Source of the DNA: a virus
IMG/VR virus record: IMGVR_UViG_3300031576_000108
Coordinates: 1-44,328 of that record
Length of the DNA stretch: 44,328 bases
Direction: 5' to 3' (one strand)
Part shown: positions 1-15,092 of the stretch, in pieces
Layout: each line of letters begins with the position of its first letter
Position numbering within the stretch: the stretch's first letter is position 1
Program-made: the position numbers and the translations under genes
The notes under the pieces: model-generated
Databases searched by the model: none
Seen by the model: the letters and a program-made list of their open reading frames with translations, nothing else
What the model was told of the DNA's origin: nothing

Positions 1-31
1 CCTCTTTGAGACCCAGTTACTTTTCCGCTAA
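1..31 (+). CDS. small protein, 3' part of the junction-spanning gene
   Basis: This is the continuation of the frame that starts at 44193; the codons from ACC at 11-13 to the TAA at 29-31 complete it after merging the duplicated CCTCTTTGAGA. Function unknown. Confidence 0.55.
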   Translation, partial: LFETQLLFR

Positions 32-33
32 GT

Positions 34-367
34 GTGCAAATTTGCCATTTCGCATTCGCAGGTGAAAAACGTGCCCCAAGCCCAACAAGCGCGAGTCCTC
101 CGGATCGAGTATGTGCCGCTCAGGCGTCGTTGCCCGAGGTCTCGGTCCGCGAGGTCCCTGGCATGGAGTGCCGCACGTGGGAGCATAGCGAGGTTGATTC
201 TTATCGAGGTTCAAAGCTCCGCATCGTGCCCATCCCCGAGGACGTGTTTGGCCGAGCAGCTGTACCTGCGGAACAAGTGGGGCCGTCACATCTCTTTCGG
301 CGAGTTCGCCTCCATCGAGAAAACCTCCATCCACGTAGGCCGCCGCCAGTCTCTCCAGGCCGTCTAG
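34..367 (+). pseudogene. probable small early gene with a frameshift near base 250
   Basis: Two overlapping plus frames each look coding over part of this stretch. From GTG 34 the frame reads convincingly up to about base 250 (segment SKLRIVPIPEDVF). After that, the frame two bases earlier takes over with strongly GC-biased third positions and peptide NKWGRHISFGEFASIEKTS, ending at TAG 365-367. A single indel near 245-258 would join them into one protein of about 110 residues. It begins directly after the stop of the junction-spanning gene. It could be a real mutation, a sequencing error, or two unrelated ORFs; no family is recognised. Confidence 0.35.
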
Positions 368-434
368 ACCAAAAGAATTTTTCCATCTCCCCGGCCCGTC
401 CGGTCCAAAAAGCCTCTCCCTCCAAGTCTTAGGT

Positions 435-464
435 CTAGAAAAAAATTCCCATTTTTCTAGTTTT
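435..464 (+). terminator. AT-rich hairpin followed by T-run
   Basis: CTAGAAAAA (435-443) pairs with TTTTTCTAG (452-460) and is followed by TTTT. It separates the frameshifted ORF from the next promoter region, so it probably ends upstream transcription. An AT stem this weak may work poorly. Confidence 0.4.
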
Positions 465-544
465 CTCGCCTTCCCGTTAGAACAATAAACGGTATCATTA
501 TAGTAGATACAACAAAACCACCGACCAAACGAAAGGGGAAAACG
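465..544 (+). promoter_or_regulatory. early promoter region P1
   Basis: This gap holds GGTATCATTATAGTAGATAC followed by AACAAA; the 16 bases TAGTAGATACAACAAA recur exactly before the gene at 43260. TATCAT at 493-498 or TATAGT at 500-505 could be the -10 box; no clear -35 is seen. The leader ends in a purine-rich AAAGGGGAAAACG before the ATG at 545. Confidence 0.45.
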
Positions 545-712
545 ATGAAAAATCAGAAGAAAAATCAAATGTGGGTTGTGAAAGCTGAAAGCGTGAACGG
601 CCAGCCATGGGTGAGCCAGCCCATGAACCGCGAAGCAGCCGAAAAAGAATGTCGGGACGTGGAAATGTTCCATTGGAAGTTCTGGAGGAATGCCCGCGTC
701 GTGAAAGTCTAA
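545..712 (+). CDS. hypothetical small protein (55 aa)
   Basis: A 55-residue basic protein beginning MKNQKKNQMWVVKAESVNG. The ATG at 545 lies eight bases after AAAGGGG, a good ribosome site, and just downstream of early promoter P1. A short run (MNREAAEKECRDVEMFHW) resembles the SRETAEACLEKL segment of the small protein at 1848, so the two may share a fold. No known domain is recognised. It is the first of a run of very short, closely spaced early genes, a position where phages commonly keep host-takeover or regulatory peptides; that role is inference. Confidence 0.65.
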   Translation: MKNQKKNQMWVVKAESVNGQPWVSQPMNREAAEKECRDVEMFHWKFWRNARVVKV

Positions 713-739
713 ATAACGAGCTGGAAAGGACGGAAGGAA

Positions 740-955
740 ATGAACGGGAAAAAGAGTAGCAAAGTGAATGTGTGCACGCGGGCCTTTGAGAACACCTACG
801 GACACAAGCCGCGCGGGTTCGGCTTCTGGATCTTCAAGATCATCCACCCGACAGAGTTGCGGTGGGATCTGTTCCAGGTGCCCTCCTCGAACTACGGGAA
901 GGCCAAAGCCGAAGCCGTCAAAGAGGCTAACAACGCAGAGGAGTCCTCGATATGA
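740..955 (+). CDS. hypothetical small protein (71 aa)
   Basis: A 71-residue protein beginning MNGKKSSKVNVCTRAF, with a central aromatic stretch (GFGFWIFKI) and a charged, helix-prone C-terminus. AAGGA and GGAAGG precede the ATG at 740. Its TGA (953-955) overlaps the ATG at 952 of the next ORF in ATGA, so translation of the two is probably coupled. Family not recognised. Confidence 0.6.
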   Translation: MNGKKSSKVNVCTRAFENTYGHKPRGFGFWIFKIIHPTELRWDLFQVPSSNYGKAKAEAVKEANNAEESSI

Positions 956-1068
956 ACCTGACTACCAAATACCGACCGAAATGTTTGGACGAGGTCCTGG
1001 GGCAGTCTGACGTAGTTCGGAGATTGAGACTCTTCCGGCAGGAACCCTACACGACAGAGGAGTATTGA
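952..1068 (+). CDS. clamp-loader-like N-terminal peptide (38 aa)
   Basis: A 38-residue ORF whose first 22 residues (TTKYRPKCLDEVLGQSDVV) match the opening of RFC small subunits, DnaX and RarA, where K-Y/W-R-P-x-T-x-D-E-V-x-G-Q precedes the Walker A loop. Here the frame stops before any Walker A, Walker B or sensor motif. Start is coupled to the previous gene (ATGA); stop is four bases before the next ATG at 1072. The next gene encodes the matching C-terminal domain, so the pair looks like an AAA+ clamp loader or RarA from which the ATPase core is missing. It may be a remnant, or a peptide that docks on host clamp-loader parts. Confidence 0.6.
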   Translation: MNLTTKYRPKCLDEVLGQSDVVRRLRLFRQEPYTTEEY

Positions 1069-1071
1069 GAC

Positions 1072-1626
1072 ATGAAAATCCTCACGACGCGAGGCTACGA
1101 CTTTTTCGAATGTTCGTCTGCGATGCAGAAAGCGATCCGCCGCGGCGACGCGCGGCTGGGCGGCTACTGGGCCGTCGAGCTGCACGAGTCGAATTATGGG
1201 GAGTACGTCTGGAACCGGCTGATGACGATCTCGGCCGAGGACTGCTGGGGGATCCTCACGCAGGAGGTCGAGTCGCTGTATCGCGGCTGGCTCATGGTGA
1301 ACAAGCGGCGCCGCCCGAAGGATCCATTCAAGGGCCGAGTGTTCGTGGCCAAGGCGGTGATCCTACTCAGCCAGGCCAAGAAGTCGCGCGATGCCGACCA
1401 CCTGACCAACCTGCTCTACGACGCCCAGGCGGTGACCGACCACGAGCTCGATCGCGAGCTCACGGCGGCCCGCAAGAACCCGGAGGAGATTCCGGAGTAT
1501 GCGTTCGACGTGCACACGCAGAAGGGCAAGAAGCGTGGCCGGACGAAGGAGGAGTTTTTCGCTGACGAGCACGCGGCCCTCAAGCCGCGCGAGCCCGGCC
1601 TGTTCGACAAACTGATCGACTCTTAA
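1072..1626 (+). CDS. RarA/MgsA C-terminal-domain-like protein
   Basis: A 184-residue protein. Residues about 8-60 (YDFFECSSAMQKAIRRGD, then WAVELHE, then ISAEDCW) follow the pattern of the C-terminal domain of RarA/MgsA (Y-D-x-x-S-A-x-x-K-S-x-R-G-S-D-x-x-A-x-x-W, then S-E-D-I-G), the tetramerising collar of that clamp-loader relative. Similar stand-alone proteins occur in phages. There is no Walker A or B motif. GAGG upstream and a four-base gap tie it to the 38-residue RFC-like peptide. The C-terminal third is charged and lysine-rich (KGKKRGRTKEEFF) and may be flexible. A role at replication forks is inferred from the family only. Confidence 0.65.
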   Translation: MKILTTRGYDFFECSSAMQKAIRRGDARLGGYWAVELHESNYGEYVWNRLMTISAEDCWGILTQEVESLYRGWLMVNKRRRPKDPFKGRVFVAKAVILLSQAKKSRDADHLTNLLYDAQAVTDHELDRELTAARKNPEEIPEYAFDVHTQKGKKRGRTKEEFFADEHAALKPREPGLFDKLIDS

Positions 1627-1645
1627 ACAGGAAAGCGAGGTTCCG

Positions 1646-1792
1646 ATGAACAAGTTCATTGAGGAAGACAGGGTGCTGGCTGTGGGCCTGGTGGTTGAAG
1701 TCCGCTGGACGAACAAAGTTCCGAGTCAGATCGGCGCGGAGCCGTACCCTGTAGGTCGGGAGATCATCGTGCCACGTTGTCAGCGGGTATAG
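1646..1792 (+). CDS. hypothetical small protein (48 aa)
   Basis: ATG at 1646 after GAAAGCGAGG; 48 residues beginning MNKFIEEDRVLAVGLV and ending at TAG 1790-1792. The beta-prone, hydrophobic middle and charged ends suggest a small folded domain, but no family is recognised. It follows the RarA-like gene by 19 bases and is probably in the same transcript. Confidence 0.5.
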   Translation: MNKFIEEDRVLAVGLVVEVRWTNKVPSQIGAEPYPVGREIIVPRCQRV

Positions 1793-1847
1793 CGATCGCT
1801 ACGCTTGTAAGCAAAACAACACCCCCAGCAGGCAAAGGAGAATGACG

Positions 1848-2060
1848 ATGAACTATTACTTCACAGTCGCAGTTGAAACGTGTTCCATGACTGAGATCCC
1901 GGCACGATGGGAGCAAAAGACAAACTGTGGTCACAAGCACCTTAGCAGAGAGACGGCCGAGGCGTGCCTTGAAAAACTAAGGCGTCGCAACAAGGACGGA
2001 AGTTGCTCAGCCCTGTGGTACAACGCGCGAATTCATGATCAGGACCGTCACAGAGCCTGA
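1848..2060 (+). CDS. hypothetical small protein (70 aa)
   Basis: Two ATGs (1842 and 1848) share the frame. AAAGGAG at 1834-1840 is too close to the first and seven bases from the second, so 1848 is chosen; the product starts MNYYFTVAVETCSM. It has two His and two Cys in a CGHKHLSRETAEACLEKL segment, but no regular zinc-ligand spacing. The segment resembles part of the protein at 545. Confidence 0.6.
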   Translation: MNYYFTVAVETCSMTEIPARWEQKTNCGHKHLSRETAEACLEKLRRRNKDGSCSALWYNARIHDQDRHRA

Positions 2061-2079
2061 AAGGAGCAGGGAGCACACA

Positions 2080-2277
2080 ATGCCCAAAACCAGCGCCTAC
2101 ACTCTGATTCTCCCGGCCGAGGAGTGGCACGACTTCAAAGTGTTGGCCGCGGTACGCGGTTCGAACATCCGGGAGGAGCTCCGGACGATGATCCGGCGCG
2201 AGGTCGATGAGGCCCGCCGGGCCGGCCGGCTCCCGACCGATACCCCTCCACGGAAGAAGCCCGCCAAGAAGCGCTGA
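2080..2277 (+). CDS. ribbon-helix-helix-like DNA-binding protein
   Basis: A 65-residue protein starting MPKTSAYTLILPAEEWHDF; AAAGGAGCAGGGAG precedes the ATG. The layout of a short strand (YTLILP) then two helices (EEWHDFKVLAAVRG and SNIREELRTMIRREVDEARR) fits the ribbon-helix-helix fold of Arc/CopG regulators, which bind operators as dimers. The tail RKKPAKKR is basic and is shared with the helix-turn-helix protein ending at 3700. The 3' third of the gene is duplicated 119 bases downstream. A role as an early-gene regulator is inferred from fold and position. Confidence 0.6.
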   Translation: MPKTSAYTLILPAEEWHDFKVLAAVRGSNIREELRTMIRREVDEARRAGRLPTDTPPRKKPAKKR

Positions 2278-2280
2278 CCA

Positions 2281-2335
2281 AAAAATCCGAAAAAATTCTA
2301 TGCGGCCCTACTATGCGGCCCCAATGATATGTGAT
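2281..2335 (+). promoter_or_regulatory. operator/promoter block P2 with direct repeats
   Basis: AAAATCCG..AAAATTCTATGCGGCCCTA followed by a second TATGCGGCCCC: the decamer TATGCGGCCC occurs twice, 14 bases apart. The same block recurs at 43142-43185. AT-rich TGATATGTGATATAGA follows and could hold a -10. The repeats look like binding sites for a phage regulator. It heads the transcript for the gene at 2549. Confidence 0.45.
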
Positions 2336-2394
2336 ATAGATGTCAGGTGTGAGTAGGACGCGGCCCCGGCGAACAGGGGCAGGACGCAAACTCG

Positions 2395-2464
2395 GGTCGA
2401 TGAGGCCCGCCGGGCCGGCCGACTCCCGACCGATACCCCACGGAAGACCGCCAAGAAGCGCTGA
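2395..2464 (+). pseudogene. duplicated 3' fragment of the ribbon-helix-helix gene
   Basis: GGTCGATGAGGCCCGCCGGG onward repeats the end of the gene at 2080-2277 with a few changes and small deletions, down to AAGAAGCGCTGAC. It has no start of its own and is too short to fold, so it is scored as a duplicated remnant. It ends 85 bases before the next gene. Confidence 0.6.
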
Positions 2465-2548
2465 CAAACGTTGTGATGTGCCCCGTACGCCTGGCCGACG
2501 CAGGGATCCAGTCGGAGCCGCGGCCCGCGAAGCCGCAAGGGAGAAAAA

Positions 2549-3235
2549 ATGAGATATGACCTCAAACAGTACCGCGAAATTCCAAGCATCCGAGGAAAAG
2601 ACCTCGACGTCAGTTACGATGAGCTCCGGGACTGGGACCGCGGATTCCTCGAGAGACTTCGCGTCCAAGAACAGGTTGACCATCCTGCGTTCATTTGTTC
2701 GCGCGGTTTGACCGAGCAGTCGTACCAGGATGGACTGAATAAACTCGGTGTCGTGTACACCGAGCGAACGATCCCTAATATTTTCTGCGGAGAGAGATTC
2801 AACGAACCAGAAGAGATTCAGTACATCAGCCCGAAAGACGGAAGACCGAAATGGGCTTATCAGTTCACGTTCGGATCCATCGACTCGTACTCCTGTGATG
2901 TGCTGATCTTGTCTTCCCCCGTACCTGATGAGGAAATCGGAGGGCTGTTCGATAACTGGCGGTCCGCTTTCCAGCGCAGCATGCGCGAGCAGGATCAACT
3001 CAGAAAAAAGGCCGAGCTCGGCCGTCCATTCTGGGCGATGATCAATGGTAGCTGGATGCTCGGTGAGTTTTGTTTCGAGCTGCGGCTGTTCCCGATGTCG
3101 GACGATGAGATTGCGGACCGGCTCAACTGGGGGGCGACAGCCTGCGGACGGGATGGATTCATTTCTTCTATTCGCAAGTACGCTGAACTGTGTCCGGAAA
3201 CGCTTCTTGAAAAAGCGCACAGTCTCGGCTGGTAG
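2549..3235 (+). CDS. hypothetical protein (228 aa)
   Basis: A 228-residue, acidic, mostly helical-looking protein beginning MRYDLKQYREIPSIRGKD, with AAGGGAGAAAAA before the ATG. Several tryptophan/aromatic positions (WAYQFTF, FWAMINGSWML, NWGATACGRDGF) suggest a compact globular protein. There is no signal peptide, membrane span or metal motif, and I recognise no family. It sits alone between operator block P2 and a strong terminator, so it is probably expressed as its own unit, unlike its smaller neighbours. Confidence 0.65.
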   Translation: MRYDLKQYREIPSIRGKDLDVSYDELRDWDRGFLERLRVQEQVDHPAFICSRGLTEQSYQDGLNKLGVVYTERTIPNIFCGERFNEPEEIQYISPKDGRPKWAYQFTFGSIDSYSCDVLILSSPVPDEEIGGLFDNWRSAFQRSMREQDQLRKKAELGRPFWAMINGSWMLGEFCFELRLFPMSDDEIADRLNWGATACGRDGFISSIRKYAELCPETLLEKAHSLGW

Positions 3236-3254
3236 AGACACGCTGCGAGCCCCT

Positions 3255-3315
3255 GCCCGCGCCGTCCGGTCTCGCAAACCGGCCCTCACGGGAAGTGCGG
3301 CGCGGGCGGCTTTTT
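3255..3315 (+). terminator. strong intrinsic terminator
   Basis: GCCCGCGCC (3255-3263) pairs with GGCGCGGGC (3299-3307), with an inner CCGG...CCGG stem, followed by GGCTTTTT. It lies 20 bases after the stop of the 228-residue gene. Confidence 0.75.
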
Positions 3316-3343
3316 GACAACAACAAACCACAAAGGAGACGAC

Positions 3344-3415
3344 GATGAAGACGACAAAGGAAGCGATGAAATGCACGCACGAACAAACCGCCATCAGGGC
3401 AAGTCGGGCAAAATG
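3344..3415 (+). CDS. leader peptide coupled to the HTH gene (23 aa)
   Basis: AAAGGAGACGACG precedes an ATG at 3344 that opens a 23-codon ORF (MKTTKEAMKCTHEQTA and seven more). Its TGA (3413-3415) overlaps the ATG at 3413 of the helix-turn-helix gene. The ribosome site is much better than that of the downstream gene, so translation of the regulator probably depends on this leader. A similar arrangement precedes the paralogue at 43714. Confidence 0.5.
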
Positions 3416-3700
3416 AAAACATCACCCCCCGCAGCTCACGGAGCCCACTGGCCGCGCGGTAAGCGACGGCACGCAGATGTGGGCGACTGGTCGCACATCC
3501 GGCTGCAGGTCCAGTCGGTACTCGATGCGCATTGGTCGCCTGGTGAGCGATCGTTGCGAGCTATCGCCGAGGTGCTTGGGGTCTCCGACCGTGCGGTCAG
3601 GCGATGGATGTCTGGAGAGGACCGCCCTCCACCAGAGAAGCAAGAAGAGCTGCGGGCATGGCTACAGCAGCAGCGGAAGAAGCCCGCCAAGAAGCGCTGA
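3413..3700 (+). CDS. helix-turn-helix regulator, copy 1
   Basis: A 95-residue protein starting MKTSPPAAHGAHWPRG. The segment LRAIAEVLGVSDRAVRRWMS is a canonical helix-turn-helix (first helix, G-V-S turn, recognition helix), followed by GEDRPP. It ends in the basic tail RKKPAKKR shared with the ribbon-helix-helix protein. It is a paralogue of the protein at 43714-44043: the run AAHGAHWPRGKRRHADVGDW is identical in both. The start is set by ATGA overlap with the leader peptide. A repressor or Cro-like role in lysogeny is inferred from fold, size and duplication. Confidence 0.7.
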   Translation: MKTSPPAAHGAHWPRGKRRHADVGDWSHIRLQVQSVLDAHWSPGERSLRAIAEVLGVSDRAVRRWMSGEDRPPPEKQEELRAWLQQQRKKPAKKR

Positions 3701-3790
3701 CAAACGTTCACAAACGTTCTACAAAGGCCACCAGTCCGGGGAAACGACTCCCAAACACGGGCTGGCCCGGGTTCTTGGAGGCCAAACTAG

Positions 3791-4609
3791 GTGGCAAGGA
3801 AGCCCAAACAGGCCCCCTCTCCCACCCCCGATCGGCCGGTAGTTGCCCCTGACCTGGCCGCCCAGGCGATCGAGAACCTCCGGACGATGGCCCTTATGGA
3901 GGTTAAGAGGCTCGGGGACAAGGTCCAGGCCGGGGTGACCCTATCTACATCGGAACGTTCGAGCCTGTTTAGACTTAGGAAGGCGTTCGAAACAGGCTCG
4001 TCTAGCCCTAAACGGCCGGAAACCGTAGCATTCTCGCCGCGATCCGTGACAGTTTCGCTGGCGGCGGACTGTTTCGGGCTGGACCGACGCAGCCTGCAAT
4101 ACTGGTTCAAGGAGGGAGCTCCCAAGAACGCCGACGGGACGGTGAGTCTGCCGGACCTGTTTCGTTGGTGTGGGGAGCGAGCCAAGTCGGATCGCGACAC
4201 CACGCAAAGCATCACGAATTGGGACCGTATCTTCCGCAAGTGGAAGGCTCGGGCCGCGGAGCTCGCCTACCGGAGGGCCAGGGGCGAGTTAATCACGCAG
4301 GACGAGGTCGCTTCGACTGTCGGATCCATTGCCGCCACGGTCTCCGGCGCCCTTTCCCGTCTTCCCGCTCAGATTGCCCAGACGCTTGAACATCGCCATC
4401 GGGCCGACATCGAGGCCCGGCTGGCGGTTGAAATCGACGACATTCTGAGCCACCTGGCACAATGCGAGTACGTGCAAAAACAGTCGAGGGTCGAGGGTCG
4501 AGGGTCGAGGCCCAGCAGCCCAAACCCGACCGCATCATCACGGCCTGGCGGGCCGGCATCGGGCCGCGGCCGAAAACGACGTGTTCCGAGTGGGCCGAGC
4601 AGCACGTAA
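3791..4609 (+). CDS. terminase small subunit (Nu1-like)
   Basis: A 272-residue protein with GTG start 3791, GGAGG nine bases upstream. The position directly before the large terminase, an N-terminal DNA-binding-like region (about residues 85-125, LAADCFGLDRRSLQYWFKEG) and a helical middle with RARGELITQDEV followed by a long helix match Nu1-type small subunits, which recognise pac/cos DNA and present it to the large subunit. The last 45 residues are low-complexity (SRVEGRGSRPSSPNP), encoded by a GGGTCGA tandem repeat, and overlap the large subunit by 148 bases in another frame; the ancestral stop was probably earlier. Confidence 0.75.
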   Translation: MARKPKQAPSPTPDRPVVAPDLAAQAIENLRTMALMEVKRLGDKVQAGVTLSTSERSSLFRLRKAFETGSSSPKRPETVAFSPRSVTVSLAADCFGLDRRSLQYWFKEGAPKNADGTVSLPDLFRWCGERAKSDRDTTQSITNWDRIFRKWKARAAELAYRRARGELITQDEVASTVGSIAATVSGALSRLPAQIAQTLEHRHRADIEARLAVEIDDILSHLAQCEYVQKQSRVEGRGSRPSSPNPTASSRPGGPASGRGRKRRVPSGPSST

Positions 4610-6483
4610 ATCTCGACGAGCTGGACGGCACGCCCTGGCCAGGTCCCTTCCGCTATCGCCGCACTCCCTTTGCAAGGCAGATCGCAGACTCGATCAGCGA
4701 CCGCGAGGTGGGTGCCGTGACCGTCGTAGCGGCTGCTCAAGTCATAAAAACCCGTACCGCCTTGAATGCCCTGGGTTGGATGATTGACTGCGATCCAGGC
4801 CCGATCATGTTGGTGATGTCGTCGAAAGAGCAGGCCGATGACGTGGTGGAACAGCGGGTCCGGCCGTTTCTCGAACGGACGCCAACGCTGGCCGCCCGCC
4901 GCTCGCACTCGAAGGCCCACTGGAAAACTGATGAGCTATGGTTCGACCGCTGCATCCTGCGCATAGCCGGCTCGAACTCCGCTTCGCAGTTGTCTAGCCA
5001 CTCTATCCGCTGGCTGATCCTCGACGAAGTGGACAAATTCAGGGGTCAGACAGAGAAGCACGGGTCGTCCGTGGCCTTGGCCGAAGCGCGCACCAAAGCC
5101 TGGGGCACGCTCGCGAAGACGCTAGCTTTCTCGACGCCGACCACCAAATTTGGGGCTATCTGGCGTCGCTTTCTGGCCGGCACGCAAGAGCGCTATTGGG
5201 TGCCCTGCCCTCACTGCGGCGAGTTTCAGATTCTCAAGTTCGAGCAGATTCGCGTAGCCACTTCCGCCGGGACAAGCCCGGCGGCTCGCGGAAGCGGCGC
5301 TCGCGCAAGCGGCGTTGCTTCCGCTACGACGATCGGAAGTGTGGCCACTTCCACTACCAATCCCGAGGTTGCCTTTGAGCAAGCACACTATGAATGCGTA
5401 GTGTGCCGCGGAAAGATTCTCGACCATCACAAGACGGAGATGTTGGATCGCGGACAGTGGCGTGCCCTGGTCACTGGCCGCCGGCATCGCAGTTTTCACA
5501 TCGGCGGCCTGTACTCACCCGTACTTGGTTTCGGCTATTTCGCGCGGCGGTTCATGTTGTGCCACCCGCTTGATGAGTCGGGCAACGTGATCGCGCGATC
5601 GAAGCCATACCCGGACGCATTGCAGGCGTTTCAGAACGAGGATCTCGGTGAACTGTGGGAGGAGCCTGGCGAGGCTGCGACTGATGAACAGATTCTCTCG
5701 CACCGCGATGAGAGTTATGGACCGGGAGAGTGTCCGACATCTTCACCGTTCGAAGTGATCCTCTACGCGGACGTGCAACATTCGGGTTGTTACTACGTGA
5801 TCCGCGCGTACGGGCCGCACGAGACGAGCTACCTGCTCGACTACGGTTTCACACTTTCATGCGAGGAGCTTCAGCCGATCGGCCAGAACCAATACCGCAC
5901 ACCTGGCGATGGCCTGGTTAGTGTCACTCGTGTTGCGCTCGATTCGTCCGACGGGACACAAGTTGACCACATTTACGAAGTCTGCCGGCGGTTCAAGTGG
6001 ACGGCGGTCAAGAACTACGACATCTCACAGCAGCCGCAGCCGGTCCGCCTCGGCAAAGGACCCGCCGGTGTGCGTCTGATCCTTGTGCAGACGCCCTACT
6101 TCAAAGATTATCTGATGCGGAAACTGCAGATTCACCTGGGCGATCCAGGGGCCTTCCACCTGCACCGCGAGACCGGCCTGGACTACGTCCGGCACATGAC
6201 GTGTGAGAAGCGGGTTGACGACGTCGATCAGTTCGGCGCCCCGCGCGTCTCATGGGTCCAGTCGCACCCGGACAACCATTGGTTCGACTGCGAGGTCGGG
6301 CAGCTCGCGATCGCTTACGTGCTCCGGTTGCGCTATCGCCATCTCCCGGAGGACACGGCGCGCCGCCGCCAGGAGCGGAACACCAGAGACGACCTACACA
6401 ATCGGACGGCCCGCCGACGTGAGCGAATCGACCGAATGCGTGATCGTGTCGGTGCCCGTCTACGGCGGAGGAACCGTCGATGA
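4462..6483 (+). CDS. terminase large subunit, GpA-like
   Basis: A 673-residue DNA-packaging motor and nuclease of the lambda GpA type. CSEWAEQHV and PGPFRYRRTPF at 41-70 are the family opening; AAAQVIKT (90-97) is the Walker A-like loop; WLILDEVD (184-191) is Walker B. YWVPCPHC (245-252) and ECVVC (311-315) are the two halves of a zinc ribbon, split by a foreign insert (about residues 266-300) made from a palindromic repeat. The C-terminal half carries the nuclease region (LYADVQHSG) and ends in an arginine-rich tail. The annotated start encodes repeat-derived residues (VEGRGSRVEAQ), so the ancestral start may lie near codon 20. Its stop overlaps the next ATG (ATGA). Confidence 0.85.
   Translation: MRVRAKTVEGRGSRVEAQQPKPDRIITAWRAGIGPRPKTTCSEWAEQHVNLDELDGTPWPGPFRYRRTPFARQIADSISDREVGAVTVVAAAQVIKTRTALNALGWMIDCDPGPIMLVMSSKEQADDVVEQRVRPFLERTPTLAARRSHSKAHWKTDELWFDRCILRIAGSNSASQLSSHSIRWLILDEVDKFRGQTEKHGSSVALAEARTKAWGTLAKTLAFSTPTTKFGAIWRRFLAGTQERYWVPCPHCGEFQILKFEQIRVATSAGTSPAARGSGARASGVASATTIGSVATSTTNPEVAFEQAHYECVVCRGKILDHHKTEMLDRGQWRALVTGRRHRSFHIGGLYSPVLGFGYFARRFMLCHPLDESGNVIARSKPYPDALQAFQNEDLGELWEEPGEAATDEQILSHRDESYGPGECPTSSPFEVILYADVQHSGCYYVIRAYGPHETSYLLDYGFTLSCEELQPIGQNQYRTPGDGLVSVTRVALDSSDGTQVDHIYEVCRRFKWTAVKNYDISQQPQPVRLGKGPAGVRLILVQTPYFKDYLMRKLQIHLGDPGAFHLHRETGLDYVRHMTCEKRVDDVDQFGAPRVSWVQSHPDNHWFDCEVGQLAIAYVLRLRYRHLPEDTARRRQERNTRDDLHNRTARRRERIDRMRDRVGARLRRRNRR
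4485..4520 (+). repeat. GGGTCGA tandem repeat (family D)
   Basis: GTCGAGGGTCGAGGGTCGAGG tandem array at the overlap of the terminase genes; translated in two frames at once. Related arrays occur at 6786, 22330 and 36403. Confidence 0.8.
5263..5290 (-). repeat. palindromic repeat (family B) inside the terminase gene
   Basis: CCGCCGGGACAAGCCCGGCGG plus CTCGCGG lies in frame in the terminase, encoding SAGTSPAARGS between the halves of the zinc ribbon. It is followed by degenerate GC-rich copies to about 5335. No frame disruption results. Confidence 0.85.
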
Positions 6484-6860: not shown

Positions 6861-6890
6861 GAGCCGCCGGTGCTTGTCCCGGCGGCTTTT
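6861..6890. terminator. family B palindrome acting as a terminator between converging operons
   Basis: GAGCCGCCGG and CCGGCGGCTTTT pair around TGCTTGTC and are followed by TTTT, a textbook intrinsic terminator for the plus-strand terminase block. The T-run contains the stop codon (complement of TTA, 6889-6891) of the converging minus-strand gene, so the repeat has been fitted to both transcripts. Confidence 0.7.
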
Positions 6891-8406
6891 AGCAGACTGG
6901 CACAAAGTCGTAATTCCCCGAAAAGAGGGTGGCGTTGCAATCCTCCATGAGTGCTGTGGCGATGAGCCCGTTGGGCTTCCAAGTCAAACTGCTTACACCG
7001 CCGGTCCCGGCACCCAACTCAACCTGAATCTCGAACATCAGGCTTGTAGCGTCGAGAAACAGTGCAGCGTCCACGTCAAAATCAACTGGGCTGTTCAGTA
7101 TGGCAGTTGCTCCGGTCACGATGAGACTGCCATCCGAGGAGCTGAAAACGATGCTCGGAAATGGCCCCTCCTCGACCAGAACTGAAACTGTGCGTTGTCC
7201 AACCAACATACCGTTCACAAAGAACTTTACGGTAGCACTCTGTGTACTGGGCAATGCCGGGTAGTCGTTGCCAGGCCCCGACGGTGTGGTGCATGAGATG
7301 CGCAGCTGAATCACCACCGCCCCGACCAATCGCACCGATTCTGTCTGGTAGCCGAAGAACGATAATTCGTACCAATGGCGCAGCTTCTTCTTCCAAGGCA
7401 ACCCGCTGATCCCGGCGTCGAAGCCGAATTTGTTCTTCACCCAGTTCTCTCGGTACAGCACCCGGCCATCAAAGGGGAATCCTGCAAACTGAGCTCCAAT
7501 CGCGCTATTGGCTACCACTAGGCTGCCTGGTTGCTCGTTCAAACCAGGACGCGGATCAAAGATGAAGTCCTGCAGGATCGTTTCTCCATCTCGCCAGTAG
7601 TTTTTCACGAATCCCTTCTGCGATTGTCGCCACGGCATGTATCCGGTTTCCAGATAGAACTCGTGCATGATCTGGAGGTCGGGCGGGTAGAGCGGTGAGT
7701 TTGGCGTCGTACCGTGGTTGAACTGCATGATCTCGAACAGGTTGGTGTTCTGATCGTTGCCTGGCGAGATTTTTGTCGAGGGGTCCAAGTACCAGGGCCG
7801 GCCGAGCGGGTGAGCGCCGTCCGTCTTCCAGTTCCACAAATCGCTTGCTATGCGATCGTTGACGAAGGGGCTTTCGGGCCAACCACCAGAATGTGCGAAC
7901 TTCGTTGTGGTTCTACTCGCTGGCTGCGGGTTGCCGATGAAATCCAACCCCATTGGGTGCCTCGCTCCATGCACCCAACCCTCCAAGCCTGGCCCATTCG
8001 GCGGGTCTTCCCACAGCTCGGCCGATACCAAATCCGCCGCCGCGCGCATCTGTGCCAAGAGGTCTTCGAAATAGAACCAGTGAGCGCCTTCCCGCGATGG
8101 CCCGAACGGCCGGAAGAACTGCTCCAACACCAGGGGCACTGGTGTGGTCAGCAGGTCGAAGACGTAGCCCAGTTCGTCGGGTTCTGTGATGAGCTGATAG
8201 GGTTCCTGGGTCACTCGGTCGCGTAATATGAACTCTGGCGGCGACCCGCCCAGCCACCGCTGCAAGGCGTTCAGCCGGTAGCAGGCCATCGCTATGTCTG
8301 CGACTCGGTTGAGGCCGAACGCCATTTTGCGGAAGCGAGCTGATGTCGAAGTGAATTCGAAAATGACGGGCATGCCAGAGTTTTTGAACAGCCAAACGCA
8401 AGGCAT
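6889..8406 (-). CDS. putative tail-tip/virion protein (505 aa)
   Basis: Last gene of the virion operon. A 505-residue protein beginning MPCVWLFKNSGMPVIFEF; the N-terminal half is mixed helix/strand with many aromatic residues, the C-terminal third is beta-rich with a repeating strand-turn pattern (ESVRLVGAVVIQLRI, ATVKFFVNGMLVGQRTVSV, LMFEIQVELG) like a carbohydrate-binding or receptor-binding jelly roll. No signal peptide. It starts three bases after the stop of the preceding gene, so it is co-translated. A role in host contact is inferred from position at the distal end of the tail genes and the beta-rich C-terminus. Confidence 0.6.
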   Translation of the reverse strand: MPCVWLFKNSGMPVIFEFTSTSARFRKMAFGLNRVADIAMACYRLNALQRWLGGSPPEFILRDRVTQEPYQLITEPDELGYVFDLLTTPVPLVLEQFFRPFGPSREGAHWFYFEDLLAQMRAAADLVSAELWEDPPNGPGLEGWVHGARHPMGLDFIGNPQPASRTTTKFAHSGGWPESPFVNDRIASDLWNWKTDGAHPLGRPWYLDPSTKISPGNDQNTNLFEIMQFNHGTTPNSPLYPPDLQIMHEFYLETGYMPWRQSQKGFVKNYWRDGETILQDFIFDPRPGLNEQPGSLVVANSAIGAQFAGFPFDGRVLYRENWVKNKFGFDAGISGLPWKKKLRHWYELSFFGYQTESVRLVGAVVIQLRISCTTPSGPGNDYPALPSTQSATVKFFVNGMLVGQRTVSVLVEEGPFPSIVFSSSDGSLIVTGATAILNSPVDFDVDAALFLDATSLMFEIQVELGAGTGGVSSLTWKPNGLIATALMEDCNATLFSGNYDFVPVC

Positions 8407-8409
8407 TTC

Positions 8410-8775
8410 CTAGAAACCCCTCGGTATAGATTCTGAAACCCAGATCGAGCCCGACTTGAAAACGGTCACCTCATCGCCAACCACCAGAAAAGGCGAGCCG
8501 CCGACGGCCTCGACCTTGTTCCAAAACTCGATTTCTTCCCCCAAACTTGCCGGTACCAACTCGCCGTTCAGGTTAACGGCATAGGTTCGAACAAACCCCG
8601 TGTACTTCTTTCGTCCGGACGTCGCTTGGTTTGTGACAACGACGTGTTTGAACTCAGAAGCGCTTGCTAGACTGGGTGCCCGCCGTCGTATGTTGACGGT
8701 CAGTTGCCCCTCGACTTCGATGAGCTTCTTCGCGTGCTGCCTGACAATCTGTTCCAAGTCGTCGAGCCTTGCCAT
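8410..8775 (-). CDS. putative tail protein with N-terminal coiled coil (121 aa)
   Basis: A 121-residue protein starting MARLDDLEQIVRQHAKKL, a short coiled coil, then a compact beta domain (YTGFVRTYAVNLNGEL, GDEVTVFKSGSIWV). The frame is open upstream through two copies of the family A repeat (GTRSVPTTE), but the ATG at 8775 has TGAGG in front, partly supplied by the repeat edge, and is preferred. Coiled-coil plus beta domain suits a small trimeric tail or fibre-attachment protein; inference only. Confidence 0.6.
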   Translation of the reverse strand: MARLDDLEQIVRQHAKKLIEVEGQLTVNIRRRAPSLASASEFKHVVVTNQATSGRKKYTGFVRTYAVNLNGELVPASLGEEIEFWNKVEAVGGSPFLVVGDEVTVFKSGSIWVSESIPRGF

Positions 8776-8784
8776 CTGTTCCTC

Positions 8785-8887
8785 AGTAGTAGGCACACTC
8801 CGTGTGCCGTCCTCAGTAGTAGGCACACTCCGTGTGCCGTTTGGATCTGCGGCTACCTCCCACGGCACACGGAGTGTGCCTACTACT
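8785..8887. repeat. cluster of three family A repeats, one inverted
   Basis: Direct copies at 8785-8810 and 8815-8840 (AGTAGTAGGCACACTCCGTGTGCCGT would be one copy) and an inverted copy at 8862-8887. Together they can form a large cruciform in the gap between two tail genes; the inverted copy abuts the stop of the gene at 8888. Confidence 0.9.
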
Positions 8888-10987
8888 TCAAAACACCTGC
8901 GCGGCTTCTTCCATCGACCAGTACCCTGTGCGCAAGGACGTCACCACCTGCCCTTCTCGGAACACGTTCCGCCTCTCGGTGACGACTGCAAATACCGGCT
9001 CCGCGACGTTTATCCCGATAACGCCGGTCACCATCGAGCCGATCGGCGCGAACGACCCGACCATGTTGATTGGTATCTCGATCGCCTGCCGCTCGACCGA
9101 CGCAAAGTAGACGACCACGGGCGCGAACGCCCTCAACCGATCGGTCGTGTCCTCGACGATGAGGTTGTCGCCGTGGATCCGCTCCAAGGTGGCGTCGTCG
9201 TCCTTGATGCTGGTTACCGTTCCGGGCGCGCAGTACCGAAACTTGACCCCGCGGATCTCGATTGTCTTCTTGCGTTCGGCGTCGAGGTTTGCCGCGGCGT
9301 TGCGCCTGAGCACGACGTGCGGATGCTGGTCGGTCTTGAACGCCGCGGTGACGATTACATCCCGCCAATCGACGCCGGTTGTCTCGGGGTCGAACTTGGA
9401 GTCGGTGTGCGGGTCCCAGTTCCCGCGCGCGAGTGCGTGGTTCGGGTTCCCGTCCAGTTCGACGCCGAAGGCGGCGTCGAGCGATCGCACGTTGCACGGT
9501 GCGAGTGCCGCCTGGCTTAGCTTCTCGATGTGTGCCCACCGATCTGGATCCGCCGCCTGCGCCTTCGGCAGCTTGACGAATGCGATTAATGGCAGGAACT
9601 CCTCATCTTTATCGGGTATGTCCGGGTCGATCTTGAGGACCTGGCCGTCTACGACGGAGGGTGGCTCGTGGTACTCGCGGTTCTCGCGCAGAAACGTGTC
9701 CGGCATGAACCGCTTCTCACCGCTCCAGTAACCCGCCGGCGACTGGTCCGCCGTGTCGATGGTCCCGTCCTCGCGCGGCTTTAGCGCGGTGTTGGTTTTC
9801 TCCCCGCCCTCGCCGTCGCCGACTTTCTGATCCCAGCCCGGTACGACGATGAAATGTCGGAAGACGTCCCGGTACTTGTCCTTCGAGCGGGCCAGGTCGT
9901 TCTTGGTGGCGTCACCCTCATCGACGTTGGCGTACTCGTCCTGGCGATCGAGGCTCCAGCGCCGCGTAAAGTTCTCGTCCTCGAACGACCAGCTCCCCAT
10001 GAGCTCGATCGGGTCGGCGCCGCGGATCTCGTAGGTGTCGTACTGGCTGCTGGTCGATTGCCGAAAATCGACTGCGTCAATGAGTCCGGTGTACGGCCAC
10101 TCGGTGGGCAGGATGAGTGGCTGTTGCCAGGCGTTGGCCGGCAGTGTGTAGCTGCCGAAGCTGACTGGCCGGTCGGCCAGAGAGAAAATCTCCAGCAGCG
10201 TGATCGTCGTTGCGGTCGCCTGCATGTGCATCCCAAGTCCGCGCCGCCGATCGACCAGCCGGTTCATCGCCTCCCACGCGCTCGATCCTTTCAGGTCGTT
10301 GACCTCGATCAGGTCGTCGAGCACTTCGAACTGTCCGAAGAGCCACAATGGGATGTTGTTCGGGCCGAACCAGCACTCGACATATTCAAGCGCGTTCAGG
10401 TTCGACCAGGGGTTGTTCTCGTTCTCGCTCGAAAAGACATAACTGGATCTGCCGTTGGCCGGGTTGGTGAACTTGGAGCTCGACCGATTCCCGCGCGGCA
10501 CTGTCCCGCGGATCGGTGACAGGTTGAACGTCGGCACGCGGTGAATCTCGCGGGCCTGGCCGCTCTCCTCGGCGATCGCATGGTCGATGTAGACGCGGTC
10601 CCACAGGTGTGGTAGCCCGTAAGCCTGGACCGTCTGGGTGCCCGACAACCTGGTCGAGCTCATCAGCCGGTTGAGCGGGTCCTGGAAGAGGCCCGTCCAG
10701 AGGATCCCAGGCGCAAAGCCTGGGTACTGAAACCGAATCTGCGCGTACAGATTGGTGAACCGCAGGGGAAAAATCTGTGTAAGTGCCGAGTGATGGGGCC
10801 ACTGGATGCGGCCGAACTGAAAGATGAACGTGGCGTCGGGCATATCTGGGCCGGCCACGTCGCGGCATTCGTCGGCGTCGAGCAGCGGGAAGAACGTCCA
10901 GGGCGCGGACCAGCTCGCTTTCAGAAACGTGTACACGCGCGCCCTCGGCTGCGCCGTCCCCGAACTACTCGACTTAACGCTCGGCAT
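8888..10987 (-). CDS. putative tail hub/tip structural protein (699 aa)
   Basis: A 699-residue protein beginning MPSVKSSSSGTAQPRARV. It is rich in Trp, Tyr and Pro in the first 300 residues, then strongly acidic (DEYANVDEGDATKNDLA), and ends with a barrel-like region (VKFRYCAPGTVTSIKDDDA, VITGVIGINVAEP-type strands). Position after the tape measure and before the fibre-like genes, and its size, suggest the tail hub or a tip protein. I recognise no defined domain. GCAAGGA precedes the ATG closely. No enzyme motif was found. Confidence 0.6.
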   Translation of the reverse strand: MPSVKSSSSGTAQPRARVYTFLKASWSAPWTFFPLLDADECRDVAGPDMPDATFIFQFGRIQWPHHSALTQIFPLRFTNLYAQIRFQYPGFAPGILWTGLFQDPLNRLMSSTRLSGTQTVQAYGLPHLWDRVYIDHAIAEESGQAREIHRVPTFNLSPIRGTVPRGNRSSSKFTNPANGRSSYVFSSENENNPWSNLNALEYVECWFGPNNIPLWLFGQFEVLDDLIEVNDLKGSSAWEAMNRLVDRRRGLGMHMQATATTITLLEIFSLADRPVSFGSYTLPANAWQQPLILPTEWPYTGLIDAVDFRQSTSSQYDTYEIRGADPIELMGSWSFEDENFTRRWSLDRQDEYANVDEGDATKNDLARSKDKYRDVFRHFIVVPGWDQKVGDGEGGEKTNTALKPREDGTIDTADQSPAGYWSGEKRFMPDTFLRENREYHEPPSVVDGQVLKIDPDIPDKDEEFLPLIAFVKLPKAQAADPDRWAHIEKLSQAALAPCNVRSLDAAFGVELDGNPNHALARGNWDPHTDSKFDPETTGVDWRDVIVTAAFKTDQHPHVVLRRNAAANLDAERKKTIEIRGVKFRYCAPGTVTSIKDDDATLERIHGDNLIVEDTTDRLRAFAPVVVYFASVERQAIEIPINMVGSFAPIGSMVTGVIGINVAEPVFAVVTERRNVFREGQVVTSLRTGYWSMEEAAQVF

Positions 10988-11001
10988 TCCTTGCCCCCGT
11001 G

Positions 11002-11026
11002 GTAGTAGGCACGCTCCGCGTGCCGT
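11002..11026 (+). repeat. family A palindromic repeat
   Basis: One copy (GC variant: GGCACGCTCCGCGTGCC) in the 90-base gap between two tail genes, just upstream of the minus-strand start at 10987. Confidence 0.9.
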
Positions 11027-11077
11027 CGTTCAGCGCCGTGGAGATAGCGCCTTTTTGCCGCCTCGGTCTCTTTATCA

Positions 11078-14000
11078 CTATTTCTGCTCCGCTATCCCTC
11101 GGTAGATCACCTTCCCCGTCTCCTGCCCGGCCGCGTTGCTGAGCATCGTTGCGGTGAGCACGTTGGTGTTCGTACTCTCCTTTCCGTCGCTCGACCGGAA
11201 CGACCGGATGATCATCTTCATAGTGGTCCCCGGCGGCCAGCCGACTCCTCCGTTGTTGTTCTGGTAGTTGAGCTGCGGCGCGCCGTCGGTGTCGATCATG
11301 TCGATGTCTACCGGCGCATCGACGCCGCCTGGCACCGGTGCGGTCCCGTTCGTCCTGAAGTATAAGCGGAACTTATTCGCCTGCAGCGGCGCGTCGGTGG
11401 CCGAGAAGTAGGTTGCCGTCGCGACGAATGTCCCGCCGACTTTCGCAACCAGCATCTGGTCGAACGGTGCGGACGGCGGCAGGTTCATCTGGTTGCCGCC
11501 CCCGTCGATCATTATCTGTGTTGCCTCGACCGGTGCCCCGATCGCGAGCATGTTGAAGCGGTTCCTGCGCCCGAGCAGTAGGTAGTAGGTGTGGTTTGGC
11601 GCGAGCACCGGCGAGTCGAACGGCAATGTGACGGACGTTGCCGCCGGCGGGGCCGCCAAATTCGGCGGCACATCCTGGCCGATGTAAAGCTCGTACCGAG
11701 AGAGGTCGTCGTCCGCGACACGGAACAGGCCGGCGAGCGGCTCGTCGAACGTGACCGCGCCGACTTGGTACTGAACCCGAAACATATTGAAGACCTCGGG
11801 AGTGGCGATCGCCCCGGCGGTGGTGAGTCGCTCGTACCACAGGCCCGCCTGGCGGAAGGTCGCCAGGTCACCCACGAGCACGCCTCCGGCCGGTGTGATG
11901 CCCGACGACCAGGTCCCCCCCACAAACCCGGCCGTGCTGGGTGCCGTCGATTCGTTTGGAATCGTCTGGATCGGTCCGCCGATCTGCGGCGACGCCGGCT
12001 CGATGCCGAACCGGACGCCGGCCGTCGGATAGACCCGATCGGTTGCGACGCCGCCCGACGCGACGGTTCCCAGTAGTCCACGGCCGGTTGCGGGCACCGT
12101 GAGCGTTGTCGCGTCCCGGCTGGAGTAGTAGACAATCTCCCGCAGCGTTCCATCGACCCGCCGCACCTGCGCGTATCCGTAGCGTTCCCAGCTACAGAAT
12201 AAATCCGGTTGGCCGCTGATTGTGCCGGCACCGGCAGCCGGCAGCGTCATGTTGTTCGTAACAACCGGCGAGCCGAACGTGGCCAGGTACACGCGAATGT
12301 TCGTGACGGTGGCCATCGACCGCGTTTCGAGCATGACCGCGCGGTATCGGCTGCCGCCGGCTGCCGACAGGGCCTCGGGTACATTCGATGCACCGAACAC
12401 GTTGTTGAACTGGTCCGAAAATTGGATCGAGTACCCACCGGCGAGTGTCGTCCCCGTAGCGCTTCGCTCGACCCGGATCCACTTTCCAGGGTCCCCGCTC
12501 GATATGAGTTTGGTTGTGCCGACCGGCAATAGGGTGATCGGCCCGGGCGAGTCGCCCGGCGCCGTGTACCGCACGTTGTTTCCATCGACCACGGCCAGGC
12601 TGCCGTCTTGAGGCTCATAGGGGAACCGCCGAGTGTCCAGGTTCTCTCGACTGGCGAACAGCACGCGCACACCCGACAGGATCCCGAAGACCTCGAAGGC
12701 GATTCGCTCGGCCTCGTAGGAGCTGCGGAAGTTGCCCAGGCTCGCCGCCTGGTTGGTTTGCTCACCGCTATAGACGGTCGCTCCGGTGAACCAGATCACG
12801 AGACTATCGGCGCCCGTCGGGCCAAAGAACGTCGTGAAGTCGCTGTCCCAGCTGTCGGTTGTGAACACCTTTTCCCAGAAGCCGGGCGTTTTCGGCGGTA
12901 TCGGGTCAAGGTCGTCGGGCGTGATGTAGTCGTAGACCGCGAACGTGCTCGGGTCCCAGTTGACCTCGGGCGGCTCGTCGTAGCCGATCGGCACAGGCAC
13001 GGGCCGGCGCGTCAGCTCCTCAATCTCATCGAACCGCATGGGAAAGAACGGACCGAACGCGCCGAACAACCCCGCGAAAATACCCGTCTCTGTGTTGTCT
13101 AGGTCGATGCTAGGCCGGACGGGACGCGCCCAGGGATCTTCCCATGGATAGGCGTACTTGTGTGGCGCGTCCGGTGGGAAGATCCCTCCCCCAAAGTTGA
13201 TCCCCTCCACGTGCTCGTAGTAGAGCAGCGTCGCCATCACGGACGTGGTCCGGGCCGGCGCCGGCACAGTGTCCCAGTCCCCCGGATCCGTGAGCGCCGC
13301 CGCGAACGCAGGCGGCTTATGGCAGTATTCCTCATCCTCGGCGAGCCGCCGGGCTTGCCCCGGCGGAAGCTCATCGTCCACGTGGCAGAGCAATCGCGGG
13401 TCGATCACCGCGAACGCAAACGTGTTCCCCGGTTGATCCGGCTCTGGCGCCAAGAACTTGGATGCTCCGCGCGGTAACTGGTCATCGACCTCGGGGACCA
13501 TGCCAGGCGTAAACGGTGCCGGCGGCGCTGCCGGCACGAACCCGTCCGGATCCTCATCCGTGAGCCGCCGGGCTTGTCCCGGCGGAAGGTCTTCGGGGCC
13601 TTCGCCGACCAATGCCGCGCTGAACACGGCCGCCGGCGCGAACACGTTTGGTTCATCGTCGAGGCCCGCCGGGGCAAGCCCGGCGGCTCGCGGAAGATCC
13701 TGGTCGGCCTCGACCACAAACGCCGCATTGAACGTGACCGCGACCGGCGTGAACACGTTCGGCTCGTCATCCGGCAACGTGGCGGCTGCTGCCAGTGGCC
13801 GTGGTGCTGGGTCGTCCGGAAAGTCCAAATGCGGGTCGGCCCAGACGATCGGGGGCGTCCCACCGGTCACGCACAGGGTGATCCGGCAATGGTCTACTCG
13901 CGCGGTTCCGGATCCGGCCCCGCTGTTCTGCGCGGCTAGGAGCGCACCGAATCCAGAGCTGTTGACTTGTGCTAGCGTGAGGCTCGGGAACCCCCACTCT

Positions 14001-14617
14001 GCGGGCGTGTACCGATAGAGTCGGTACGTGTCAACCGTCGGCCAATCGACGGCCGACGATTTGTCGGTCGCACTGGCGACGCCGTCCACGATCAATCGGG
14101 CCGCCGAGTCCTTCACCGGGTCACCAGTCCGCGAAATCTCAAACTCGACCTCGACCCACTCGATCTTGCCTCCGGTGAGCAGTGGAAAACCGAAGTTGGT
14201 GAACTCTAACCAGCGCGTGTCATCACCGGGCGTGAGGGTGGCAGTTGCGTAGAAGTCGTCGCTGCTGAGTGCGTTGGCTGGTGCGGTCCAGAGGAACGGC
14301 CCACCGTGTGTGACGATTCCGTTCTTGACCAGTCCCGGGTTCCGCGGGCCAGTGCAATGTGTGAATCCGGTGAGCAGCTCCTCGTCGAACGGCTGCGGCC
14401 GGGTAATCGAAAACGGGATGACGTCGTCCAGATCCTCGGGAGCCGGCGTGAACGTGATTGCTGGGGCCGGCGCGAAGACGTTCGGCTCGTCTTCGAAGTT
14501 GATGAGTTGGGCGCGTGGTGGCAGATCTTCATCCGGCTCCGGCGACGGCGTGACTGTCGGCGCCGCCGCCGGAGCGAAGACCGCGTTATCGCCCTGATAC
14601 CAGACGCCTCTTCCCAT
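11078..14617 (-). CDS. giant modular tail protein with tandem repeats (1179 aa)
   Basis: Largest gene of the window. After a short N-terminus come degenerate repeats of about 35 residues with the core D-x-D-L-P...DEPNVF-x-P-A; units lie at about residues 28-60 and 265-445. Between them (residues 95-255) is a beta-rich domain (FTNFGFPLLTGGKIEWVEVE). After the repeats come several fibronectin/lectin-like beta domains to the end, finishing KVIYRGIAEQK. Several repeat units contain LPPGQARRL or GLAPAGL, which are translations of the family B DNA palindrome. Position and modular beta architecture point to a tail fibre or tip protein for host contact; inference. The gene uses strongly GC-biased codons like its neighbours. 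Confidence 0.65.
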   Translation of the reverse strand: MGRGVWYQGDNAVFAPAAAPTVTPSPEPDEDLPPRAQLINFEDEPNVFAPAPAITFTPAPEDLDDVIPFSITRPQPFDEELLTGFTHCTGPRNPGLVKNGIVTHGGPFLWTAPANALSSDDFYATATLTPGDDTRWLEFTNFGFPLLTGGKIEWVEVEFEISRTGDPVKDSAARLIVDGVASATDKSSAVDWPTVDTYRLYRYTPAEWGFPSLTLAQVNSSGFGALLAAQNSGAGSGTARVDHCRITLCVTGGTPPIVWADPHLDFPDDPAPRPLAAAATLPDDEPNVFTPVAVTFNAAFVVEADQDLPRAAGLAPAGLDDEPNVFAPAAVFSAALVGEGPEDLPPGQARRLTDEDPDGFVPAAPPAPFTPGMVPEVDDQLPRGASKFLAPEPDQPGNTFAFAVIDPRLLCHVDDELPPGQARRLAEDEEYCHKPPAFAAALTDPGDWDTVPAPARTTSVMATLLYYEHVEGINFGGGIFPPDAPHKYAYPWEDPWARPVRPSIDLDNTETGIFAGLFGAFGPFFPMRFDEIEELTRRPVPVPIGYDEPPEVNWDPSTFAVYDYITPDDLDPIPPKTPGFWEKVFTTDSWDSDFTTFFGPTGADSLVIWFTGATVYSGEQTNQAASLGNFRSSYEAERIAFEVFGILSGVRVLFASRENLDTRRFPYEPQDGSLAVVDGNNVRYTAPGDSPGPITLLPVGTTKLISSGDPGKWIRVERSATGTTLAGGYSIQFSDQFNNVFGASNVPEALSAAGGSRYRAVMLETRSMATVTNIRVYLATFGSPVVTNNMTLPAAGAGTISGQPDLFCSWERYGYAQVRRVDGTLREIVYYSSRDATTLTVPATGRGLLGTVASGGVATDRVYPTAGVRFGIEPASPQIGGPIQTIPNESTAPSTAGFVGGTWSSGITPAGGVLVGDLATFRQAGLWYERLTTAGAIATPEVFNMFRVQYQVGAVTFDEPLAGLFRVADDDLSRYELYIGQDVPPNLAAPPAATSVTLPFDSPVLAPNHTYYLLLGRRNRFNMLAIGAPVEATQIMIDGGGNQMNLPPSAPFDQMLVAKVGGTFVATATYFSATDAPLQANKFRLYFRTNGTAPVPGGVDAPVDIDMIDTDGAPQLNYQNNNGGVGWPPGTTMKMIIRSFRSSDGKESTNTNVLTATMLSNAAGQETGKVIYRGIAEQK
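13342..13693. repeat. three family B palindromes embedded as codons
   Basis: Copies at 13342-13369 and 13562-13588 (GAGCCGCCGGGCTTG(C/T)CCCGGCGG) and an opposite copy at 13667-13693. On the coding strand they read LPPGQARRL twice and AAGLAPAGL once, each at the same place in a protein repeat unit. Confidence 0.85.
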
Positions 14618-14620
14618 TGC

Positions 14621-14646
14621 GAGCCGCCGGTTTTACACCGGCGGGT
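14621..14646. repeat. diverged family B palindrome at the start of the giant gene
   Basis: GAGCCGCCGGTTTTACACCGGCGGGTCC lies directly before the ATG at 14617 on the minus strand. GGACCCGCCGG includes the only ribosome-site-like purines, so the hairpin may gate translation. Confidence 0.6.
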
Positions 14647-14665
14647 CCTTTTTTCTACCCTTTTT

Positions 14666-15076
14666 CTACCCCTGGATTCCGCACGCCACCCAGCGAAGCA
14701 GGTTTGCGAACACATCACCTTCCGCCAATCGAGCGGTCCCGCGGCAGCTCTCATTCCCGAGTTTCCGCACGTAGTCGATTGTGCCGTTCACGTTCGGGAA
14801 GAAGTGAACGGATCGGTCCCCGTTCAACGCGCCGACCTCCAGGAAGTACGGACCCGAACTCTTAAACGTGAGCTCTGGCGGCACACAACCCACGAGCGAT
14901 TTGAGCTCGGCGTCTTCTCGGTTTTTGAACCGAGGGATGTCGGTCGCGTCTGTGTACCAGTGGGCGGCAGTTTTCTCGATGATGGTTTCTCCGCACTTCT
15001 GCAGAACCTCATCGACCTGCATCGAATCGAGCTGGTCGCTGCTCTGCGAAACCCATTCTGCAACTTCCGCACGCAT
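14666..15076 (-). CDS. hypothetical virion-operon protein (136 aa)
   Basis: AAAGGAGACAAGGCC precedes the ATG at 15076, which is preferred over the upstream in-frame codons that lie in a repeat. The 136-residue product starts MRAEVAEWVSQSSDQLD, is helical in the first third and mixed afterwards, with several cysteines (KCGET, LVGCVPPEL, ESCRG, VACGIQG) that show no regular zinc spacing. Unknown function; genomic position suggests a tail accessory protein. Confidence 0.6.
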   Translation of the reverse strand: MRAEVAEWVSQSSDQLDSMQVDEVLQKCGETIIEKTAAHWYTDATDIPRFKNREDAELKSLVGCVPPELTFKSSGPYFLEVGALNGDRSVHFFPNVNGTIDYVRKLGNESCRGTARLAEGDVFANLLRWVACGIQG

Positions 15077-15092
15077 GGCCTTGTCTCCTTTT

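Follow-up and report, generated by a model that had tools for sequence, protein, structure and literature searches.

We consider it likely that the virus record IMGVR_UViG_3300031576_000108 of IMG/VR carries, in damaged form, a two-gene phage version of RarA or a clamp loader, in which a deletion within the first gene left a short stub in front of an intact gene for a collar-type protein. The whole record, 44,328 bases, was analysed and is referred to here as the window. The stub, ORF38, is most likely a non-ATPase remnant of an RFC-like AAA+ gene. Judged by its homologues, the second gene, ORF184, is a complete and widespread phage gene and not a fragment. The features that matter for the argument are the following:

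740 to 955, plus strand: small ORF of 71 aa with no family match; its TGA overlaps the ATG of ORF38 (ATGA)
937 to 943, plus strand: AGAGGAG, ribosome-binding site of ORF38, 8 nt before the ATG at 952
952 to 1068, plus strand: ORF38 (MNLTTKYRPKCLDEVLGQSDVVRRLRLFRQEPYTTEEY), probable RFC-like AAA+ stub, from profile A3, alignment A2 and leave-one-out scores
1056 to 1062, plus strand: AGAGGAG, ribosome-binding site of ORF184, 9 nt before the ATG at 1072 and inside the final codons of ORF38 (T-E-E)
1072 to 1626, plus strand: ORF184, complete stand-alone protein like the MgsA_C/RarA C-terminal (collar/oligomerisation) domain, from phrog_16866, alignments A1 and A4 over the full length, MgsA_C and structure matches
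3791 to 4609, plus strand: terminase small subunit (phrog_57, E 3.7e-18)
4462 to 6483, plus strand: GpA-type terminase large subunit (PF05876, E 2.4e-61; phrog_15, E 1.5e-136)

ORF38 and ORF184 share one frame, the TGA of the former (1066–1068) being followed by GAC and the ATG at 1072, which leaves a gap of 3 bases. Both ORFs are present with intact frames and an AGAGGAG ribosome site each, as a sequence-only reading of this DNA had reported. Read-through of the TGA, which would fuse the two, was considered and dropped, as the fusion would still lack an ATPase core and the relatives have two separate ORFs. Head genes of the window lie at 26–31 kb. Searches with Rfam (positions 1–5000) and for tRNAs and PADLOC defence systems retrieved nothing relevant.

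The 3' end of ORF 2035–2277 (...KKPAKKR) is duplicated (2202–2285, 2395–2472 and 3674–3718), with a 45-nt repeat of 98% identity whose copies are 193 nt apart and whose tail, CGCCAAGAAGCGCTGACAAACGTT, recurs at 3685; the pattern shows signs of local duplication and deletion near the stub. The minus strand from 6889 to 25137 carries a run of long ORFs, including ones of 505, 699, 1179 and 713 aa, with almost no PHROG or Pfam matches (one PHROG match of 39 residues, in the 713-aa ORF). A 588-aa ORF at 33840–35606 contains a G8 domain and a CEMIP-type beta-helix, an unusual combination in a phage, and is perhaps a tail or surface-polysaccharide protein.

The AAA+ stub and the collar-type protein

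Codons 1–35 of ORF38 (952–1056) align with A3, a phage family of RFC-like AAA+ proteins, while EEY and the stop codon (1057–1068) correspond to the intergenic, ribosome-site region. With a profile of A3 built without the window sequence, residues 2–35 (955–1056) matched model positions 74–107 of 291 at E 2.9e-8, and the match ends directly before the strand leading into Walker A (AFLFxGxTGTGKT). ORF38 contains the KYRPxxLxxVxGQ N-terminal segment of RFC/DnaX clamp-loader subunits. Matches were additionally obtained to the RFC small subunit (phmmer, E 5.4e-4), the NCBIfam RFC small-subunit model (E 9.7e-5) and the PHROG clamp loader (E 5e-4), with ORF38 staying below every curated family cut-off; tblastn against phages returned weak matches only (E 1–7), DnaX/clamp-loader genes among them. 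The proposed clamp-loader-like N-terminus ending before Walker A is thus borne out, at E-values from 5.4e-4 to 2.9e-8.

Compared with RFC and DnaX, ORF38 lacks Walker A, Walker B, the sensor, the lid and the arginine finger, and its stop comes 5 residues after FxxxPY. As Walker A, Walker B and the lid are missing, it should be unable to bind or hydrolyse ATP. Domain and profile searches found an AAA core neither in ORF38 or ORF184 nor elsewhere in the 44-kb window, so that the claim of a missing ATPase core also stands. All family-invariant residues are kept over the aligned stretch, and in leave-one-out scoring the stub reached 45–48 bits against 50–66 bits for intact members. The lowest-scoring intact member, L174, likewise starts with MNLxxKYRP and has no N-terminal extension. 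No clear decay of the stub is apparent from its sequence, suggesting that the event was recent or that the stretch was retained for some reason. The final codons of ORF38 contain the ribosome site of ORF184, so the tail TEEY is largely this site in translation.

ORF184 matches phrog_16866 (E 1.5e-61), and one scan of IMG/VR retrieved 36 homologues with 53–61% identity over nearly the full length, most of them with a closely matching start and a C-terminal PGLFD. A stand-alone homologue of 46% identity over the whole length is gp86 of Microbacterium phages (Quhwahvirus; phrog_16866). This protein (Onika, L002 2483–3103) and more than 50 related records have been deposited as 'AAA-ATPase', a misleading name for a protein that has an MgsA_C-type domain and neither Walker motifs nor an ATPase domain.

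The relationship of ORF184 to the C-terminal domain of RarA/MgsA is indicated by sequence and by predicted structure. RarA has been described as an AAA+ protein resembling clamp loaders, which functions as a tetramer and can bind at gaps in DNA, and its molecular function is still unknown (PMC8735627). The ORF184 family profile matched RarA C-terminal structures (PDB 3bge, 2r9g, 2qw6, 8g28, 3ctd and 3pvs) at E 6e-5 to 6e-3. Pfam MgsA_C (PF12002) was matched at E<=0.1 by 28 of the 30 family members, the best E-value being 1.2e-7; the window copy alone reached E 0.2, under the curated cut-off, so its PF12002 membership comes from the family. These results uphold the earlier assignment of ORF184 as RarA/MgsA-like. 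WRNIP1 is the eukaryotic counterpart of RarA/MgsA. The AlphaFold model of ORF184 (pLDDT 81) has the expected helical fold; the 18 top-ranking PDB structures are without exception MgsA or RarA/MgsA-type C-terminal fragments, RFC collar regions ranking lower, and against 2qw6 it gave a TM-score of 0.87 by target over 92 columns. Considering that single Foldseek E-values are weak (0.08 at best), it is the agreement of sequence and fold that carries the assignment.

Every family-invariant residue is kept in ORF184, which is therefore predicted to be functional; it is intact and probably still made. GLFD (within PGLFD, 1594–1608) is invariant in alignment A4 and sits at the margin of the tail, whose prediction is poor; it is a possible short binding motif. 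A role as a sliding-clamp-binding motif was considered and dropped because the conserved first glutamine is absent in most members.

AAA+ and collar genes in related phages

In three relatives from independent contigs (L168, L171 and L172), a full-length A3 AAA+ gene is found directly upstream of the ORF184 homologue and on the same strand, the arrangement that also holds for the stub and ORF184. Two of these pairs were retrieved with the pattern YRP-GQ-V-L-F-PY and the third was added by a family-alignment scan. The AAA+ stop overlaps the collar start in L172 (GTGA), the genes are 24 nt apart in L168, and a short ORF separates them in L171. The genes lie just upstream of terminase-like genes in relatives too (L168, L170, L172 and L173, by ORF inspection).

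A3 proteins, of about 290–300 aa, share the AAA+ core and lid of RFC (2chg, 1iqp, 8dr0) and, together with ORF38, the KYRPxxLxxxxGQ segment of the RFC small subunit and DnaX. They differ from RFC/DnaX in lacking the third (collar) domain, and most add a helix-turn-helix-like region at the N-terminus. Their fold gave a TM-score of 0.77 by target against RFC domains 1 and 2 (2chg), and by sequence they matched RFC in the PDB at E 2e-19. In RFC subunits and in RarA, the AAA+ core and a helical third domain belong to one polypeptide. Because the phage AAA+ protein has no collar and the adjoining gene supplies that kind of domain, we read the pair as a split RarA or clamp loader: core and C-terminal domain form one chain in RarA/MgsA, whereas in the phages they are separate genes, the core being lost from the window. 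The ancestral layout was probably two genes, one for a collar-less AAA+ core and one for a separate collar protein. This departs from the proposal that ORF38 and ORF184 are the two ends of one AAA+ protein.

Identity of the window ORF184 to other copies peaks at 63%, with two of the copies paired with an AAA+ gene. The tree places it in a supported set of 11 rows that contains all three paired copies; it does not group with the paired copies alone, and forcing it to do so was not rejected (p-AU 0.154).

The two proteins are not obligate partners, given that L170 and L173 carry an A3 gene and no ORF184 homologue. In these contigs the AAA+ genes (L170 5001–5852; L173 4995–5852) are encoded upstream of terminase-like genes, and their products may work alone or with host subunits. 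A second, distinct family of collar-less RFC-like AAA+ proteins of 214–266 aa (A5, L183–L189) was detected in 9 of the 36 ORF184 contigs. It is encoded 4–6 kb away in the seven contigs where it is complete, the other two copies being cut by contig ends; nine is a lower bound, as most ORF184 contigs are fragments. Many of the 36 homologues are preceded by an unrelated type of ORF, of roughly 270 aa. A collar-only state exists as well: two complete genomes of cultivated Microbacterium phages with the collar protein showed no DNA_pol3_delta2 match, and one of them no match to an AAA profile either.

Clamp loaders made of several gene products are familiar in phages, T4 gp44/gp62 and others being phage-encoded loaders with RFC-like ATPases; to our knowledge, T4 gp62 is not recognized as an MgsA_C protein. 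We found no description of a split RarA or of a phage MgsA_C protein in the literature searched. The RarA and RFC clades include divergent clusters from phages according to the part of PMC12153180 covered here, in which no mention of a separate collar gene was found.

Origin of the stub

Where relatives read PY-[PS]-[ATV]-A-F, the window reads PY-T-T-E-E-Y-stop, and alignment to intact genes places the break after PY-T-T (PY-S-T-AFVF in L162). Intact genes have about 184–188 codons from the break to the stop, which puts the loss at some 550–570 nt. Because the stub has been seen once and no close intact sister was found (nor any close sister phage in a TerL search), the deletion is deduced from relatives at about 60% identity. 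The ancestral state being most likely an operon of two genes, only the first gene was truncated and ORF184 is complete. The deletion suggested by the sequence-only reading therefore agrees with ours in being internal and in keeping both ends, but not in splitting a single gene.

We propose that the product of an intact first gene is an RFC-like AAA+ core plus lid that lacks a collar, and that the ORF184-type helical domain, like the C-terminal domain of RarA/MgsA, would act as a collar in trans. The AAA+ subunits would come together as a ring or tetramer, with the separate collar protein holding them, and from what is known of the family, the two-gene machine may work on primer-template or gapped DNA in the manner of RarA and clamp loaders. 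In the window, the deletion would have taken everything from the strand before Walker A through the last AAA+ codons, its presumed junction adjoining the ORF184 ribosome site at 1056–1062, so that the start of the first gene and the ribosome site of ORF184 were kept. ORF38 may persist because the event is young, because its translation feeds ribosomes to ORF184, or both. Left without its own motor, ORF184 would work with a host AAA+ protein (RarA or the clamp loader) or have a motor-free role, as would be needed in the Microbacterium phages that have the collar and no clamp-loader AAA+ gene.

This last step can be extended to a further, tentative reading that we regard as possible though rather unlikely. 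ORF184 and its stand-alone homologues would be collar-only modulators that either enter the host assembly of RarA or the clamp loader or compete with it, and the window would capture the passage from a self-sufficient two-gene machine to dependence on a host motor.

It is unlikely that ORF38 is nothing but a translational leader, its peptide irrelevant, from which ribosomes stopping at 1066–1068 reinitiate at ORF184. The ATGA overlap upstream, the ORF184 ribosome site inside ORF38 and the 3-base gap from stop to start fit such a role, as does the GTGA coupling of the intact AAA+ gene in L172. ORF184, however, has a strong ribosome site of its own, and solo homologues do without a leader. Coupling would moreover be a reason for retention, compatible with a remnant and not exclusive of it.

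We give somewhat less credence to a misassembled contig, arising where the assembly passed over an intact AAA+ gene or merged two phage variants. The single occurrence of the stub, the missing sister and the repeat-derived rearrangements nearby would suit an assembly error, but the gene signals are neatly kept on both sides of the junction. The only shared word noticed near it, the 9-mer CAGAGGAGT, is too short to mislead an assembler, and its position would not give the observed product.

The sequence-only reading had offered, as one option, a pair that acts on the host clamp loader by poisoning or redirecting it. In such a device against the host clamp loader or RarA, ORF38 would mimic the N-terminal (adenine-pocket) segment and ORF184 the collar. 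The good ribosome sites of both ORFs and the retention of every family-invariant residue in ORF38 speak for it. ORF184 is conserved, yet neither ORF38 nor any other KYRP-type ORF was detected upstream of the 36 other homologues (the 38-residue query had no positive control on these records, and profile A3 was used instead), the very outcome that the sequence-only reading had named as refuting its proposal. A general KYRP pattern found 119 loci in viral contigs, 15 of them cut by a contig end; inspection of the listing showed that the 104 complete ORFs all run into Walker A, so truncation before it is not a common state. The YRP-GQ-V-L-F-PY pattern, with the spacing of the window, found six contigs, all encoding AAA+ proteins in which FxxxPY[PS]xAF is followed by GxxGTGKT, and this family-specific pattern gave no second truncated copy in 2.9 million viral contigs. 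A stricter pattern found no match in genome contigs, being too strict to speak for cellular genomes or prophages. The search for relatives that had been suggested did yield phages with both genes whole: in L168, L171 and L172, a full AAA+ gene occupies the place of ORF38, which as such was detected in no other phage. It is, furthermore, unlikely that 35 residues lacking Walker motifs, lid and arginine finger would fold alone. We consequently hold a conserved hijack pair to be very improbable, and joint poisoning by both ends is not supported; the weaker, general idea that collar-only proteins act on host complexes is a possibility.

Chance likeness of ORF38 to clamp loaders, which its 38 residues and sub-threshold scores might suggest, can practically be dismissed, the E 2.9e-8 match being to the sole AAA+ family found adjoining ORF184 homologues.

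What remains of interest is the split layout. The stub is most likely a remnant, and its condition looks like loss by deletion rather than an anti-host weapon. A natural division of motor and collar between two genes, with some phages keeping the collar only, would let each half be assayed alone. It would also point to a probable clamp-loader/RarA collar as the identity of phrog_16866, a large unnamed phage family in part annotated as 'AAA-ATPase'. The main value of the truncated copy in the window is as evidence that a collar can persist once its motor is gone.
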